A stretch of 64,000 bases of DNA from an uncultured Acidobacteriota bacterium (GTDB lineage: Bacteria; Acidobacteriota; Vicinamibacteria; Vicinamibacterales; CAVVIG01), in the NCBI GenBank assembly GCA_902825985.1, contig CADEDC010000001.1, positions 121,228-185,227 of the forward strand. The letters are read 5' to 3'. Of this stretch, positions 44,855 to 50,116 are shown in pieces; positions within the stretch are counted from its first letter, which is position 1; every line of letters begins with the position of its first letter. Both the position numbers and the translations under genes were made by a program. Under the pieces are notes generated by a model, which saw nothing but the letters and a program-made list of their open reading frames with translations, did no database searches and was not told where the DNA came from.

Positions 44855-44897
44855 GATCCAAGTGTACCCTTGACCCCGGGCCCCAAACAGGGGGATA

Positions 44898-45011
44898 GTG
44901 ACTGTCACTGTGTCGACTGGCTTCTGTTCCTGTTGCTGTTGTTGCTGCGCGGCTGCGTCCAGCCCTCGCGCCACCGGTTCAGGTTCCGTCCAGTCCAGCG
45001 TCACGGCGTAA
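44898..45011 (+). CDS. Poly-cysteine leader peptide of the siroheme/sulfite reductase operon
   Basis: A 37-codon frame, bounded by an upstream in-frame TGA (44871) and its own TAA (45009-45011). Residues 10-17 read C-S-C-C-C-C-C-C, seven cysteines in eight codons, using both TGT and TGC. AGGGGG lies 3 nt before the GTG. A TTGACC (44870-44875) and GATAGT (44894-44899) with 18-nt spacing would instead place transcription start near 44906 and make the GTG at 44910 the start; both keep the cysteine run. The stop is 23 nt before a strong terminator, and the genes beyond make siroheme and sulfide. I read it as a cysteine-sensing attenuator peptide; chance low-complexity sequence is the alternative. 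Confidence 0.72.
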   Translation: MTVTVSTGFCSCCCCCCAAASSPRATGSGSVQSSVTA

Positions 45012-45034
45012 GCCGATTCGCACCCTGAACTTCC

Positions 45035-45076
45035 AAGGCCCGGGAGGCGTCCACGCTTCCCGGGCCTTTTCGTTTT
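45035..45076 (+). terminator. Attenuator/intrinsic terminator between leader peptide and sirC
   Basis: A 15-bp stem (45035-45049 with 45054-45068, one G-U pair) with a TCCA loop runs into TTTTCGTTTT (45067-45076). It points along the plus strand, yet the nearest ordinary plus-strand gene ends at 42211, so its only evident upstream partner is the leader peptide. The best alternative partner for its 5' arm is an 8-nt exact complement (44875-44882) just before the leader start; no stronger anti-terminator was found between the cysteine codons and the stem. Confidence 0.82.
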
Positions 45077-45123: not shown

Positions 45124-45777
45124 ATGACTGAACTCCTGCCGCTGTTCCTGGATCTCACCGGTCGGCGCGTCCTGCTGGTCGGGGGCGGTCCGGTTGCCGC
45201 ATCCAAGCTCGGGGCGCTGCTCGCGGCCGGCGCGGATGTCCGCGTGGTCGCGCCCGACATACACCCGGGAATCGTCGCCGCCGTTGAACGCAGCGGACCG
45301 GCACCCGCGGACGGCAGCGCCGCCGCCCCGGCGACGGCTGCGGGCGTTGGACGCGTGACGATCGAGCGGCGCCCGTTCGCGGCCGGCGATCTCGACGATG
45401 CGTGGCTGGTGGTTGCCGCCGCCCTGCCCGAGGTCAACCGCGCCGTTGCCGATGCCGCCGAGGCGCGTCGATTGTTCGTCAACGCGGTGGACGATCCGGC
45501 GAGTGCCAGCGCGTATCTTGGCGGCGTCGTCCGGCGCGACGGCATCACGCTGGCCATCTCGAGTCGCGGCCATGCCCCCGGGCTCACCGGCCTGCTGCGC
45601 GAGGCGCTCGACGCCGTGCTGCCGCGGGACCTGCGGTTGTGGATGGACGAGGCGCGGCTGCAGCGGATCCGCTGGCGGCGTGACGGCGTGCCGATGGCGG
45701 CCCGCCGCCCGTTGCTGCTGCACGCCCTCAACGTCATCTACGAGCGCCGGGCCCGCCATGAGGCGTCATGTCAGTAG
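45124..45777 (+). CDS. Precorrin-2 dehydrogenase / siroheme pathway (Met8/SirC-like)
   Basis: 217 aa. LPLFLDLTGRRVLLVGGGPVA is the NAD-binding start of the CysG N-terminal domain (GGGPVA near residues 18-23), followed by NAVDDP and ISSRGHAPGL. It oxidises precorrin-2 to sirohydrochlorin and may insert iron. A Pro/Ala/Gly-rich insertion lies at about 60-75. The start at 45124 is the family start; an upstream GTG adds 15 Arg-rich residues. It overlaps the next gene by 10 nt and lies behind the leader-peptide attenuator. Confidence 0.88.
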   Translation: MTELLPLFLDLTGRRVLLVGGGPVAASKLGALLAAGADVRVVAPDIHPGIVAAVERSGPAPADGSAAAPATAAGVGRVTIERRPFAAGDLDDAWLVVAAALPEVNRAVADAAEARRLFVNAVDDPASASAYLGGVVRRDGITLAISSRGHAPGLTGLLREALDAVLPRDLRLWMDEARLQRIRWRRDGVPMAARRPLLLHALNVIYERRARHEASCQ

Positions 45778-46601
45778 CCGCCGCCAGGGTCGGGCATGTC
45801 TCGCTGGTCGGCGCCGGCCCCGGCGATCCGGACCTGCTGACGCGGCGGGCGGTCGCGCGGCTGCGCGCGGCGGACCTCGTGCTCTACGATGCGCTCGTCG
45901 ACGAGCGGGTGGTGAAGCTGGCGCGGCGGGCCCAGCGCTTCTACGTCGGCAAGCGGGCCGGACGGCATGCGCTGACGCAGCCGGACATCCAGGTCGTCAT
46001 GATTCGTGCAGCGCAGCGCGGGCGCCGGGTGGTGCGATTGAAGGGCGGCGATCCGTTCGTCTTCGGCCGCGGCGGCGAAGAGGTGCAGGCGCTGCGGGCG
46101 GCCGGCATTCCGTACGACGTGGTGCCGGGCGTCAGCAGCGTGCTCGCGGGTCCGGCGCTGGCCGGCATCCCGGTCACGCATCGCGGCCTGGCCGGTTCAC
46201 TGCTGGTGACGACCGGTCACGATGCCGAGGGGTTCGCCGCACAGATCGGCGGCCTGCCGCCGGTTGGCCTCACGCTGGTCGTCGCCATGGGGCACGGCCG
46301 TCGCGCGGCGATTGCCGCCACGCTGATCGCCGGCGGCTGGGATGCCGACACGCCCAGCGCCGTCGTCGCCGGGGCGTCGTGGCCCGGGCAGCAGGTCTGG
46401 CGCGGCCGGCTCACCGAACTGGCCGCGGGCGCCGGCGCGCACGCCGGCGACTGTCCGGCGCTGCTCGTCATCGGCGAGGTGGCCGGGCTCGACCTGCGGC
46501 CGCCAGCCGCCGCCGGCCCGATCGCCGCAGATCACACGCAACAGGTGGCGGCCGCCGACGCGGACGCCGGGACTCACGCCGCTCGCCAGGGCGAGCGGTG
46601 A
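45768..46601 (+). CDS. cobA: Uroporphyrinogen-III C-methyltransferase
   Basis: 277 aa. SAM-dependent enzyme making precorrin-2. Motifs VGAGPGDPDLLT near the start, LYDALV, VRLKGGDPFVFGRGGEE and PGVSS are all typical. The last 35 residues are Ala/Asp-rich and probably disordered. Overlapping the dehydrogenase gene and followed 24 nt later by sulfite reductase, it completes siroheme supply for that enzyme; some siroheme could serve elsewhere. Confidence 0.93.
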   Translation: MSVAAARVGHVSLVGAGPGDPDLLTRRAVARLRAADLVLYDALVDERVVKLARRAQRFYVGKRAGRHALTQPDIQVVMIRAAQRGRRVVRLKGGDPFVFGRGGEEVQALRAAGIPYDVVPGVSSVLAGPALAGIPVTHRGLAGSLLVTTGHDAEGFAAQIGGLPPVGLTLVVAMGHGRRAAIAATLIAGGWDADTPSAVVAGASWPGQQVWRGRLTELAAGAGAHAGDCPALLVIGEVAGLDLRPPAAAGPIAADHTQQVAAADADAGTHAARQGER

Positions 46602-46625
46602 GACGCATGCGAGAAGGGGAGATTG

Positions 46626-48458
46626 ATGTCTGGGACTGATACCTCGAACACGCACGGTCGGACGCGGCTGTCGTTTGCCAACGCCGCCGACATCGACGAG
46701 TTCGTGGCCACGCTCGAGAAGTACGAGCGGGGCGAGATCACGCCGGATCAATGGCGGGCCTTCCGCCTGGTCCGCGGTACCTACGGGCAGCGGCAGTCCT
46801 ACGATGCGTCGATGCTGCGCGTGAAGATTCCGCAGGGCGTCCTGACGAAGGCGCAGCTCTACGCCCTCGCCGACGTCGGCGACCGCTACTCACGCAAGTT
46901 CGGCCACATCACGACGCGGCAGAACATCCAGTTCCACTTCATCAAGCTGCACGACATCGAACTCGCGATGCGCAGCCTCGCGGATTCGGGGCTGACCACC
47001 CGCGAGGCGTGCGGCAACTCGGTGCGCAACATCACCGGCTGCCCGTATGCCGGTGTGTCGGCGTCCGAGGTCTTCGACGTGACACCCTATGCGGACGGCA
47101 TCACCCGGTTCCTGCTGCGCCATCCGCTGAGCGCGACGCTGCCGCGCAAATTCAAGATTGCCTTCGAAGGCTGCGCCGAGGATCACATCGCCCTCGCCAT
47201 CAACGACCTGGGCTTCAAGGCGGCGATTGGTCCGGATGGGGCGCGTGGCTTCCGGGTCACGGCGGGCGGCGGCACGGCGATCATGTGCACCAACGCCGGC
47301 ACGCTGCACGAGTTCCTGCCGGCGGGCGACATCCTGCGCTGCGGCGAAGCCATCCTGAAGGTGTTCCGCCAGTTCGGCGACTACCAGCACAAGCAGCGCA
47401 ACCGGATGAAGTTCATGATCAAGTCGCTCGGCTGGGATCGGTTCGTCGGCGAATACCAGCGCGAGCTCGAGGCGGCGCGCACCGCGCCCGTGCCGCTGCT
47501 CGACATCGATCCGCCGGGAGAGGAAGTCAGGCCGGAATGGGACCGCCCGTTCGCGCCGGCCGCGGCGCTCATCGGCGCCCGTGTCGCCGCGGCGCCGCCC
47601 AACGGACCGGGCATCACGCCGGTGATCGTCCCGGTGTACCAGGCGACCGACGAAACCTACATCCGCTGGCGATCGTCGAATGTCCGCGGGCAGAAGCAGT
47701 TCGGCTATGCGATCGTCACCGCCACCGTGCCGCTGGGCGATCTCACCAGCGAGCAGATGCGGGTGGTCGGCGACCTGTCGGACGCCTACGCGGACGGCAC
47801 CGTCCGGGTGACGATGGAGCAGGATCTGGTGTTCCGCTGGGTGCGGGTGGCCGACGTCCACGAACTGTATCAGCGCCTCGCCGCCGCCGGCCTCGGGCTC
47901 GGCGAGGCCGCGACGCTCGCCGACGTGACCAGCTGCCCGGGCGCCGAGTCGTGCCGGCTCGCCGTCACCCAGTCGCGCGGCCTGGGACGGCTGCTCGAAG
48001 ACCACCTGCGGGCCCGTCCCGACCTCATCGCCGCGGCGGACGGCGCGCGCATCAAGATCAGCGGCTGCCCGAATGGCTGCGGTCAGCATCATGTGTCGAC
48101 CTTCGGCTTCCAGGGCAGCGTGCGCAAGGTCGGCAATCGCGCCGTGCCGCAATACTTCGTCCTGGTCGGCGGCGGCACGACGGCCGCCGGCGCCTCGTTC
48201 GGTCGCCTGGCGGCGAAGATCCCGGCGCGCCGTATTCCGGCCGCGGTGGAGCGCCTCATCGGACTCTATGTGAGCGAGAAGGCGGACGGCGAGACGGCGA
48301 CCGGCTACTTCGCCCGCGTCGACCTGAAGCGGGTCCAGCGTGAGCTGCTCGATCTCACCATCTTCACGGAAGCCGACGCGGTGCCGCTGGACTTCGTCGA
48401 CCTCGCCGAGAGCGGCGAGTTCGTCCCCGAAGTGATGGAAGGCGAGTGCTCGGCCTAG
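46626..48458 (+). CDS. Siroheme sulfite reductase (ferredoxin-type nitrite/sulfite reductase)
   Basis: 610 aa monomeric assimilatory reductase. Cys437, Cys443, Cys481 and Cys485 form the C-x5-C-x37-C-x3-C set that holds the [4Fe-4S]-siroheme centre; the two ferredoxin-like half-domains each have the RxTxRQN-type segment (TTRQNIQFHF). Sequence alone does not separate sulfite from nitrite reductase, but the poly-Cys leader, siroheme genes and absence of nitrate genes favour sulfite to sulfide. An AGGGGAG lies before the ATG at 46626. Confidence 0.88.
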   Translation: MSGTDTSNTHGRTRLSFANAADIDEFVATLEKYERGEITPDQWRAFRLVRGTYGQRQSYDASMLRVKIPQGVLTKAQLYALADVGDRYSRKFGHITTRQNIQFHFIKLHDIELAMRSLADSGLTTREACGNSVRNITGCPYAGVSASEVFDVTPYADGITRFLLRHPLSATLPRKFKIAFEGCAEDHIALAINDLGFKAAIGPDGARGFRVTAGGGTAIMCTNAGTLHEFLPAGDILRCGEAILKVFRQFGDYQHKQRNRMKFMIKSLGWDRFVGEYQRELEAARTAPVPLLDIDPPGEEVRPEWDRPFAPAAALIGARVAAAPPNGPGITPVIVPVYQATDETYIRWRSSNVRGQKQFGYAIVTATVPLGDLTSEQMRVVGDLSDAYADGTVRVTMEQDLVFRWVRVADVHELYQRLAAAGLGLGEAATLADVTSCPGAESCRLAVTQSRGLGRLLEDHLRARPDLIAAADGARIKISGCPNGCGQHHVSTFGFQGSVRKVGNRAVPQYFVLVGGGTTAAGASFGRLAAKIPARRIPAAVERLIGLYVSEKADGETATGYFARVDLKRVQRELLDLTIFTEADAVPLDFVDLAESGEFVPEVMEGECSA

Positions 48459-48595: not shown

Positions 48596-48703
48596 GATCT
48601 TATCGAGAGTGGCTGAGGGACAGGCCCGTTGACGCCACGGCAACCTCCGCTCCCCCGCGGGAGGTGCCAAATCCTGCCCGGTTCACGCCGGGGAAGATGA
48701 GAG
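48596..48703 (+). promoter_or_regulatory. SAM-I (S-box) riboswitch
   Basis: The core is nearly verbatim S-box: the CTTATC/GAGAG start, GAGGGA, GGCCC, the GACGCC and CGGCAACC blocks, and GGTGCCAAATCC. P1 pairs 48598-48604 with 48696-48702 including one G-U. It senses S-adenosylmethionine. The expression platform is unclear: a CCGGGA/TCCCGG hairpin (48727-48742) follows without a T run, and 48642-48649 is an exact complement of the ribosome site of the downstream gene (48844-48851), so control may be translational. Confidence 0.95.
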
Positions 48704-48853: not shown

Positions 48854-50116
48854 GTGAGCGCTCTCATCGGTCTTCAGTGTCACCTCTGCAAGTCCACCTT
48901 CGCGCCTGAGGCGGTCTACGCGTGCGCGAACTGTCTCGGTCCGCTCGAGCCGGTCTACGACTACTCGACCATCACGCTGACCCGCGCCGAGATCGCGGCA
49001 CGCCCGAAGAACATCTGGCGTTATCGTGAACTGCTGCCCATCACCGGCGAGCCGCGCACCGGGTTCCACTCGGGATTCACGCCGCTCGTGCGCGCCACGC
49101 GGCTGGCCGATCGGCTGGGCATGCGGGAGCTCTACATCAAGGACGACTCGGTGAACCATCCGACGCTGTCCTACAAGGATCGGGTGGTCGCGGTGGCCGC
49201 GACGCGAGCCGCCGAACTCGGATTCCAGGTGCTCGCCTGCGCGTCAACCGGGAATCTCGCCAACAGCGTCGCCGCGCACGCGGCCCGGCTCGGGATGGAA
49301 TGCTGCGTCTTCATCCCGGACAATCTCGAGGCGGGCAAGCGGCTCGGCTCGGCCATCTTCGGGCCGCAGATTCTCGCCATCGCCGGCAACTATGACGACG
49401 TCAATCGCCTGTGCTCGCAGGTGGCGGATCGCTACGGCTGGGGATTCGTCAACATCAACCTGCGCGCCTACTACGCCGAAGGGGCGAAGACGATGGGCTT
49501 CGAGATCGTCGAGCAGCTGGGGTGGCGCTATCCGCAGCACATCGTCTCGCCGGTCGCCGGCGGCACCCTGTTGCCGCGTATCGTCCGCGGTCTCCGCGAG
49601 CTGAAGCAGATCGGCCTGGTCGACGGCGAGTTGCCGCGCATCCACGCCGCCCAGGCGGCAGGCTGCGCGCCGGTGGTCGCGGCGCTGCTGAACGGCGACG
49701 ACTATCCCGAGCCGGTCCGGCCCGCCACGATTGCGAAGTCGATCGCCATCGGCAATCCGGCCGACGGCTATCAGGTGATCCAGACCGTGCGGCAGACCGG
49801 CGGGTCTGGTGCCGCCGTGTCGGACGAGAAAATCGTCGAAGCCATTCACCTGCTGGCCGAGACGGAAGGCATCTTCACCGAGCCGGCCGGCGGCACCACG
49901 CTCGCCGGGACCATCTCGCTCATCGAGCGCGGTGTGATCCCGCGTGACGAATCCGTGGTGGTCTGCATCACCGGAAATGGATACAAGACCACCGAGGTGG
50001 TGTCTGGTAATCTCACCCAGCCGGTGCACTTGAGCCGCGCCTTCAAGGACTTCGAGGCGTGGCAGCAGAACCGGGGAGCCGAGGCATCGGGATTGTCGCG
50101 TCAGGTCACCGCCTGA
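48854..50116 (+). CDS. thrC: Threonine synthase-like PLP enzyme under SAM-riboswitch control
   Basis: 420 aa. An N-terminal zinc ribbon (Cys9, Cys12, Cys24, Cys27) precedes the fold-type II PLP domain with the Schiff-base Lys108 in TLSYKDR, STGNLANS for phosphate binding, and a C-terminal TGNGYKT. By sequence it is threonine synthase, converting O-phosphohomoserine to threonine. The SAM-I riboswitch is odd for that role. It could be an O-phosphohomoserine-using homocysteine synthase (MetM-like, as I recall from Streptomyces) or a real ThrC controlled in the opposite sense. GTG start with GGAGGT 3 nt upstream. Confidence 0.85.
   Translation: MSALIGLQCHLCKSTFAPEAVYACANCLGPLEPVYDYSTITLTRAEIAARPKNIWRYRELLPITGEPRTGFHSGFTPLVRATRLADRLGMRELYIKDDSVNHPTLSYKDRVVAVAATRAAELGFQVLACASTGNLANSVAAHAARLGMECCVFIPDNLEAGKRLGSAIFGPQILAIAGNYDDVNRLCSQVADRYGWGFVNINLRAYYAEGAKTMGFEIVEQLGWRYPQHIVSPVAGGTLLPRIVRGLRELKQIGLVDGELPRIHAAQAAGCAPVVAALLNGDDYPEPVRPATIAKSIAIGNPADGYQVIQTVRQTGGSGAAVSDEKIVEAIHLLAETEGIFTEPAGGTTLAGTISLIERGVIPRDESVVVCITGNGYKTTEVVSGNLTQPVHLSRAFKDFEAWQQNRGAEASGLSRQVTA

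Follow-up and report, generated by a model that had tools for sequence, protein, structure and literature searches.

A predicted cysteine-responsive transcription attenuator with a Cys-codon leader upstream of sulfur assimilation genes in Vicinamibacteria

The polycysteine sORFs of mycobacteria are cysteine-responsive attenuators that act on translation (Canestrari et al. 2020, as summarised by PMC13236596 and PMC9031893), and cysteine-rich uORFs of leaderless mRNAs have been reported in mycobacteria (PMC4633059). Leaders with Cys runs were also predicted in actinobacteria; the search there found no conserved terminator hairpins, and their Cys runs lie near the stop codon (PMC1262725). In the literature we searched, all described cysteine-sensing leader peptides are actinobacterial and, where tested, translational. 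Leaderless leader peptides with an apparent Rho-independent terminator are found in Streptomyces (trpL1, ilvL and leuL2), but these sense other amino acids, and none is given for cysteine (PMC8079986). As of 2010, hardly any of the attenuators predicted for Acidobacteria had been assigned a function (PMC2965389). Could a cysteine cue be read out by transcription termination in this phylum?

The locus described here lies in a window of 64,000 nucleotides (the whole stretch of DNA that was analysed) from an uncultured acidobacterium. An initial annotation, made from sequence alone, had proposed a cysteine-sensing leader-peptide attenuator, consisting of a short frame with a Cys run, a stop codon 23 nt ahead of a 15-bp terminator, and siroheme and sulfite reductase genes behind it. 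All of these elements held, as did the statement that no ordinary plus-strand gene ends near the terminator; the start codon, placed at GTG 44898, probably lies farther downstream. The attenuator reading is supported, with the cysteine response itself remaining an inference. The initial annotation knew of no such device in Acidobacteria, and we found none described in the literature searched, most subscription papers being outside the scope of that search. Our analysis adds three points: the device stands before many other sulfur genes, its antiterminator co-varies, and its start appears to be nearly leaderless.

As listed among the open reading frames of the window, the leader frame comprises 37 codons from a GTG (44898-45011, plus strand; MTVTVSTGFCSCCCCCCAAASSPRATGSGSVQSSVTA, then stop), with C-S-C-C-C-C-C-C as residues 10-17. 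The sole promoter-like site between 44800 and 45200 overlaps this GTG, whereas shuffled sequences yield 0.0 +/- 0.2 sites in the same promoter scan. Because the promoter hexamers end 10 nt upstream of a second, in-frame GTG at 44910, we consider the latter the likelier start. Counted from there, 7 of the 33 codons specify Cys, the run spans codons 6-13, and the stop (TAA, 45009-45011) follows about 60 nt on. The window-like spacing recurs in relatives: across 52 leaders the median distance from the -10 element to the start codon is 9 nt, and TTGAC is found at -46 to -32 from the leader start in 41 of the 52 (peak at -39) and at -31 to 0 in none. With the spacing usual for sigma-70, this leaves a 5' leader of 0-4 nt and no room for a Shine-Dalgarno sequence. 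From this promoter spacing, and without a mapped start, the leader mRNA is inferred to be leaderless or nearly so. The Cys-rich runs of the 52 leaders use TGT and TGC variably (168/100), and the peptide outside the Cys residues is highly variable.

The terminator is built as AAGGCCCGGGAGGCG-TCCA-CGCTTCCCGGGCCTT, followed by the tail TTCGTTTT. No plus-strand gene ends at this position; the neighbour, an M1 aminopeptidase gene, is divergently oriented, and the terminator thus serves no upstream plus-strand gene. The leader region as a whole folds at -87.1 kcal/mol, compared to -68.6 kcal/mol for shuffled sequences (z -4.08), with the terminator as its strongest part. A terminator of the GCCCGG type with a T-tract follows the Cys run in all 30 aligned leaders, and the distance from stop codon to stem is 23-33 nt in 41 of 52. 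Some leaders escape the GCCCGG pattern, since the Cys leaders of L101 (about -166 of sirC) and L111 (about -162) have another terminator sequence, of the AACCCGCG type. No Rfam 15 family reaches its gathering threshold at the leader; the best sub-threshold hit scores 21.5 of 41 bits. In its annotated form, the M1 aminopeptidase ORF carries a poly-Gln N-terminal extension (44855-45004, minus strand) antisense to the Cys run. Its true start is probably near 44855, because the protein of the relatives begins at the signal peptide. A SAM-I riboswitch lies farther downstream in the window (Table 1), and one gene cluster thus houses both a SAM-sensing leader and a predicted cysteine-sensing one.

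Table 1. Features of the leader and of the genes downstream of it, in window coordinates.
Feature	Position	Strand	Basis or detail
Sigma-70-type promoter, TTGACC - 18 nt - GATAGT	44870..44899	+	-35 at 44870-44875, -10 at 44894-44899
Leader peptide ORF	44910..45011	+	probable true start GTG 44910; 33 codons, MSTGFCSCCCCCCAAASSPRATGSGSVQSSVTA, then stop
Regulatory codons, Cys-Ser-Cys6	44925..44948	+	TGT TCC TGT TGC TGT TGT TGC TGC
Hairpin 1:2, directly past the Cys run (predicted anti-antiterminator)	44947..44971	+	segment fold -15.6 kcal/mol
Region 2, GCCCTCGCGCC (predicted partner of the terminator 5' arm when the ribosome is stalled)	44962..44972	+	snapshot fold; co-variation over 52 leaders
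Stem P2, nested between regions 2 and 3	44976..45031	+	snapshot fold; GGTTCAGG 44976-44983 with CCTGAACT 45024-45031
Intrinsic terminator	45035..45076	+	15-bp stem 45035-45049 / 45054-45068, loop TCCA, T-rich tail to 45076
sirC-like precorrin-2 dehydrogenase, first structural gene	45124..45777	+	PF13241 NAD_binding_7, E 9.6e-26
Uroporphyrinogen-III methyltransferase-like (SUMT-type; cobA/cysG C-terminal type)	45768..46601	+	TP_methylase PF00590, E 1.5e-49
Sulfite/nitrite reductase haemoprotein (sir), NIR_SIR	46623..48458	+	PF01077, E 1.3e-50; PF03460, E 3.5e-37
SAM-I riboswitch	48597-48703	+	RF00162, 89.8 bits; between sir and the threonine synthase-like gene
Threonine synthase-like gene	48854-50116		TIGR00260

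Relatives' loci were collected by SirC and Sir searches together with their flanking DNA; most of these relatives are metagenome bins. The initial annotation had suggested checking whether Cys codons, stop and terminator are conserved while the DNA between them drifts. This check was passed: a Cys-rich leader and a GCCCGG-type terminator stand upstream of the operon in 18 of the 21 genomes of the window's family that have readable upstream sequence, its own included. Relatives keeping the operon without a Cys-rich frame had been named as a refutation, and this was partly met, by three of them. The loci L034 (4600-5010) and L046 (1750-2180) retain the promoter-like sequence and the terminator while the Cys frame is gone; in L129 both frame and terminator are gone. 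The absence of the frame looks like secondary loss in all three, and the genomes of L034 and L046 (G004 and G008) still bear leaders elsewhere. From such natural deletions one would expect termination to be constant or control to be lost. The small Cys-rich frame is present in most close relatives, as a rule 130-250 nt ahead of sirC. Among sirC loci, 38 show the arrangement of Cys run, hairpin and T-run on the operon strand, and none shows it on the opposite one. Several more distant loci without a leader adjoining sirC have one 1-2.7 kb upstream, as would be expected if sirC sits deeper in the operon. Four acidobacterial-type sirC loci (L037, L059, L075 and L110) are found on contigs titled Bifidobacterium, Anaeromyxobacter or Acidimicrobiia; these bins look mislabelled.

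An attenuator of this kind should contain a short ORF rich in codons for the end product and an intrinsic terminator between this ORF and the first gene, and both are present in the window. Its region 1 should also fall under the stalled ribosome and otherwise form a hairpin with region 2. Hairpin 1:2 adjoins the Cys run, but across leaders it is only weakly better than shuffled sequences (mean z -0.48). What could serve as the antiterminator? Region 2, made up of the second arm of hairpin 1:2 and the next bases, is complementary to the 5' arm of the terminator (region 3). It reads GAGCCCCTGCGCC in one group of leaders and GTCCCGGCGCTC in another, both differing from the window. P2 extends the 2:3 pairing, and its helix recurs in L110 (GGTTCAGG/CCTGAAC). 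Over the 52 leaders the mean 2:3 duplex energy is -21.35 kcal/mol, versus -18.84 kcal/mol when partners are permuted among leaders (z -6.65; 0 of 20000 permutations), and a neighbouring control segment in the same permutation shows no leader-specific pairing (z +1.45). The leaders are related sequences, so that these figures overstate independence and are not probabilities of independent events. At position 7 of region 3, G meets C in 28 leaders and A meets T in 18, a C-G/T-A replacement; positions 8-13 use several pair types. We also folded snapshots of the RNA that would lie free ahead of a ribosome halted at the Cys codons, at a stage when the terminator 3' arm is not yet made. Region 3 is paired with region 2 in 50 of the 52 snapshots, compared to a mean of 15.75 with the whole spacer shuffled and 35.2 with region 2 alone shuffled. 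The window taken by itself does not stand out: its duplex (-17.6 kcal/mol) is not better than shuffles (-18.8 kcal/mol), because everything there is G+C-rich, and the case rests on the set of 52. For single leaders, a comparison of each duplex with its own shuffles is too weak, which is why permutations and snapshots were used. In the best duplex of the window the first well-paired base lies 19 nt past the last Cys codon. Support for a mutually exclusive antiterminator that uses the terminator 5' arm comes from the set, not from the window alone.

How widespread is this arrangement? We scanned genomes with a pattern based on DNA only (Cys3, 66-96 nt, GCCCGG hairpin, T-tail) and used the reversed pattern as control. 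Within the class, 61 of 193 genomes and 51 of 104 genera match, and the reversed pattern matches none of the 193. A scan of 396 genomes of the phylum (reversed control, 1) listed 20 matching genomes, 19 of them from the class; outside the class there is one match among about 350 genomes of the phylum. The pattern is strict on the terminator sequence; it underestimates the true number and says little on other phyla. An earlier version without the T-tail was dropped, as it gave many coding matches and similar control counts.

The genes behind the leaders were read from loci that an earlier DNA pattern had picked irrespective of gene content. They encode CysD or CysD/PAPS-reductase-family proteins with CysN (L180, L189, L194; CysN in L191), TauE fused to a PAPS-reductase-family (CysD-like) domain (L184) or TauE (L193), sulfonate-type ABC transporters (L185) and SsuA (L186), CysK (L182), CysH with ATP sulfurylase/APS kinase (L197, L199) or CysH (L198), and SirC (L195, L196). 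Peroxiredoxins (L181, L201), PF03601 transporters (L183, L192) and a RimK-like ATP-grasp protein (L187, with a similar gene in L188) complete the list. The window's own genome (G000) has a second Cys leader at C1:64169 (L232:180-420; MISRVGRAACCCCMASDASAPARSSCGI, then stop), with TTGACA and the terminator GGCCCGGAGGCGAGACGCTTCCGGGCC, before tauE-cysD-cysN-like genes. It lies outside the spacer range of the earlier pattern and was found by scanning all Cys4 runs. No leader was seen near the cysH-like gene (C12) or the scanned cysK-like genes of this genome.

The acidobacterial leaders resemble the mycobacterial sORFs in having a run of Cys codons in a short ORF at the head of cysteine and sulfur operons, in their apparently leaderless start, and in occurring at several operons per genome. 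Unlike them, they have the run early, within the first half of the ORF and some 20 codons ahead of the stop, and possess an intrinsic terminator and a co-varying antiterminator. With the trp, his, ilv and leu leaders they share end-product codons, overlapping 2:3 and 3:4 structures (joined by the only weakly supported 1:2), and a terminator before the first gene; they differ in the cue, inferred to be cysteine, in the apparently (near-)leaderless mRNA, in the ORF that spans region 2 with its stop just before the terminator, and in their occurrence in Acidobacteriota. The S-box or SAM-I riboswitch likewise ends sulfur-pathway transcripts early, but senses SAM directly and without translation, and in the window it precedes the threonine synthase-like gene instead. 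We conclude that the device would operate in the manner of a trp-type attenuator and falls outside the mycobacterial polycysteine type.

The reading we favour, with a probability of roughly 0.86, is a cysteine-responsive, ribosome-mediated transcription attenuator that acts via the supply of Cys-tRNA. The sequence elements, their conservation, the co-variation and the regulon of sulfur genes are shown. Start site, stalling and direction of the response are inferred, without expression, ribosome or 3'-end data. In this model, transcription would begin 0-4 nt before GTG 44910 and ribosomes would load on the 5' end. Under a shortage of Cys-tRNA, a ribosome would stall in the Cys codons, cover the first side of hairpin 1:2 and free region 2, which, with the nested P2, would pair with the terminator 5' arm (45037-45048) as this emerges. 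The terminator would be blocked, and polymerase would continue into sirC-cobA-sir. With plentiful cysteine, the ribosome would continue as far as the stop, 23 nt short of the stem; region 2 would be unwound or recaptured by hairpin 1:2, the terminator would form, and transcription would end.

Could the hairpin act on translation instead, as in mycobacteria? A stalled ribosome would then expose the ribosome-binding region of the first gene, and the hairpin would block initiation and not transcription. This alternative draws support from the polycysteine leaderless sORFs of Mycobacterium, which act at the translation level (PMC13236596, PMC9031893), and from several relatives in which sirC starts right after the T-tract (e.g. 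L043, TTTTTGTTTTTATG), where the hairpin could also hinder initiation. Against it, all aligned leaders have a hairpin and T-tract of textbook intrinsic-terminator form, the first gene of the window begins 56 nt past the stem, and the co-varying region is the terminator arm. We regard attenuation at the translation level as very unlikely.

A Cys-rich nascent peptide might also sense another cue (metal, thiol redox, or as an arrest peptide) that is read out through the same terminator and antiterminator. Peroxiredoxins downstream of some leaders and spaced C-x-C patterns (L099, MCGCECACCC) would fit such a view. The wide variation of the peptide outside its Cys residues speaks against it, as do the targets, which are mostly sulfur assimilation genes, as end-product control would predict; this possibility, too, is very unlikely. 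That there is no regulation at all, with the terminator belonging to an unrelated or antisense transcript and the Cys run a mere shadow of an aminopeptidase poly-Gln stretch (the minus-strand frame across it is open long in the window and reads QQQQQQ), is all but excluded, since in L110, a locus from the same genus, and in most others the antisense frame ends within 20 codons, Cys leaders also stand upstream of unrelated genes, and the opposite-strand control is 0.

Transcription attenuation by Cys-tRNA supply thus remains the preferred reading. A bolder version holds that Vicinamibacteria run much of their sulfur assimilation and thiol metabolism by one recurring leaderless Cys leader with terminator and antiterminator. 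In this version the device would have arisen separately from the mycobacterial sORFs and be the first transcription attenuator specific for cysteine; we lean towards it by a narrow margin. In the acidobacterial leaders, a Cys cue and an apparently leaderless start would be read out by transcription termination at many operons, which bears on how leaderless leaders are coupled to RNA polymerase and on the independent invention of cysteine sensing. The leader also provides a sequence signature that places genes of unknown role, such as those for the RimK-like ATP-grasp protein and the PF03601 family, as candidates for sulfur or thiol metabolism in very common and poorly cultured soil bacteria.
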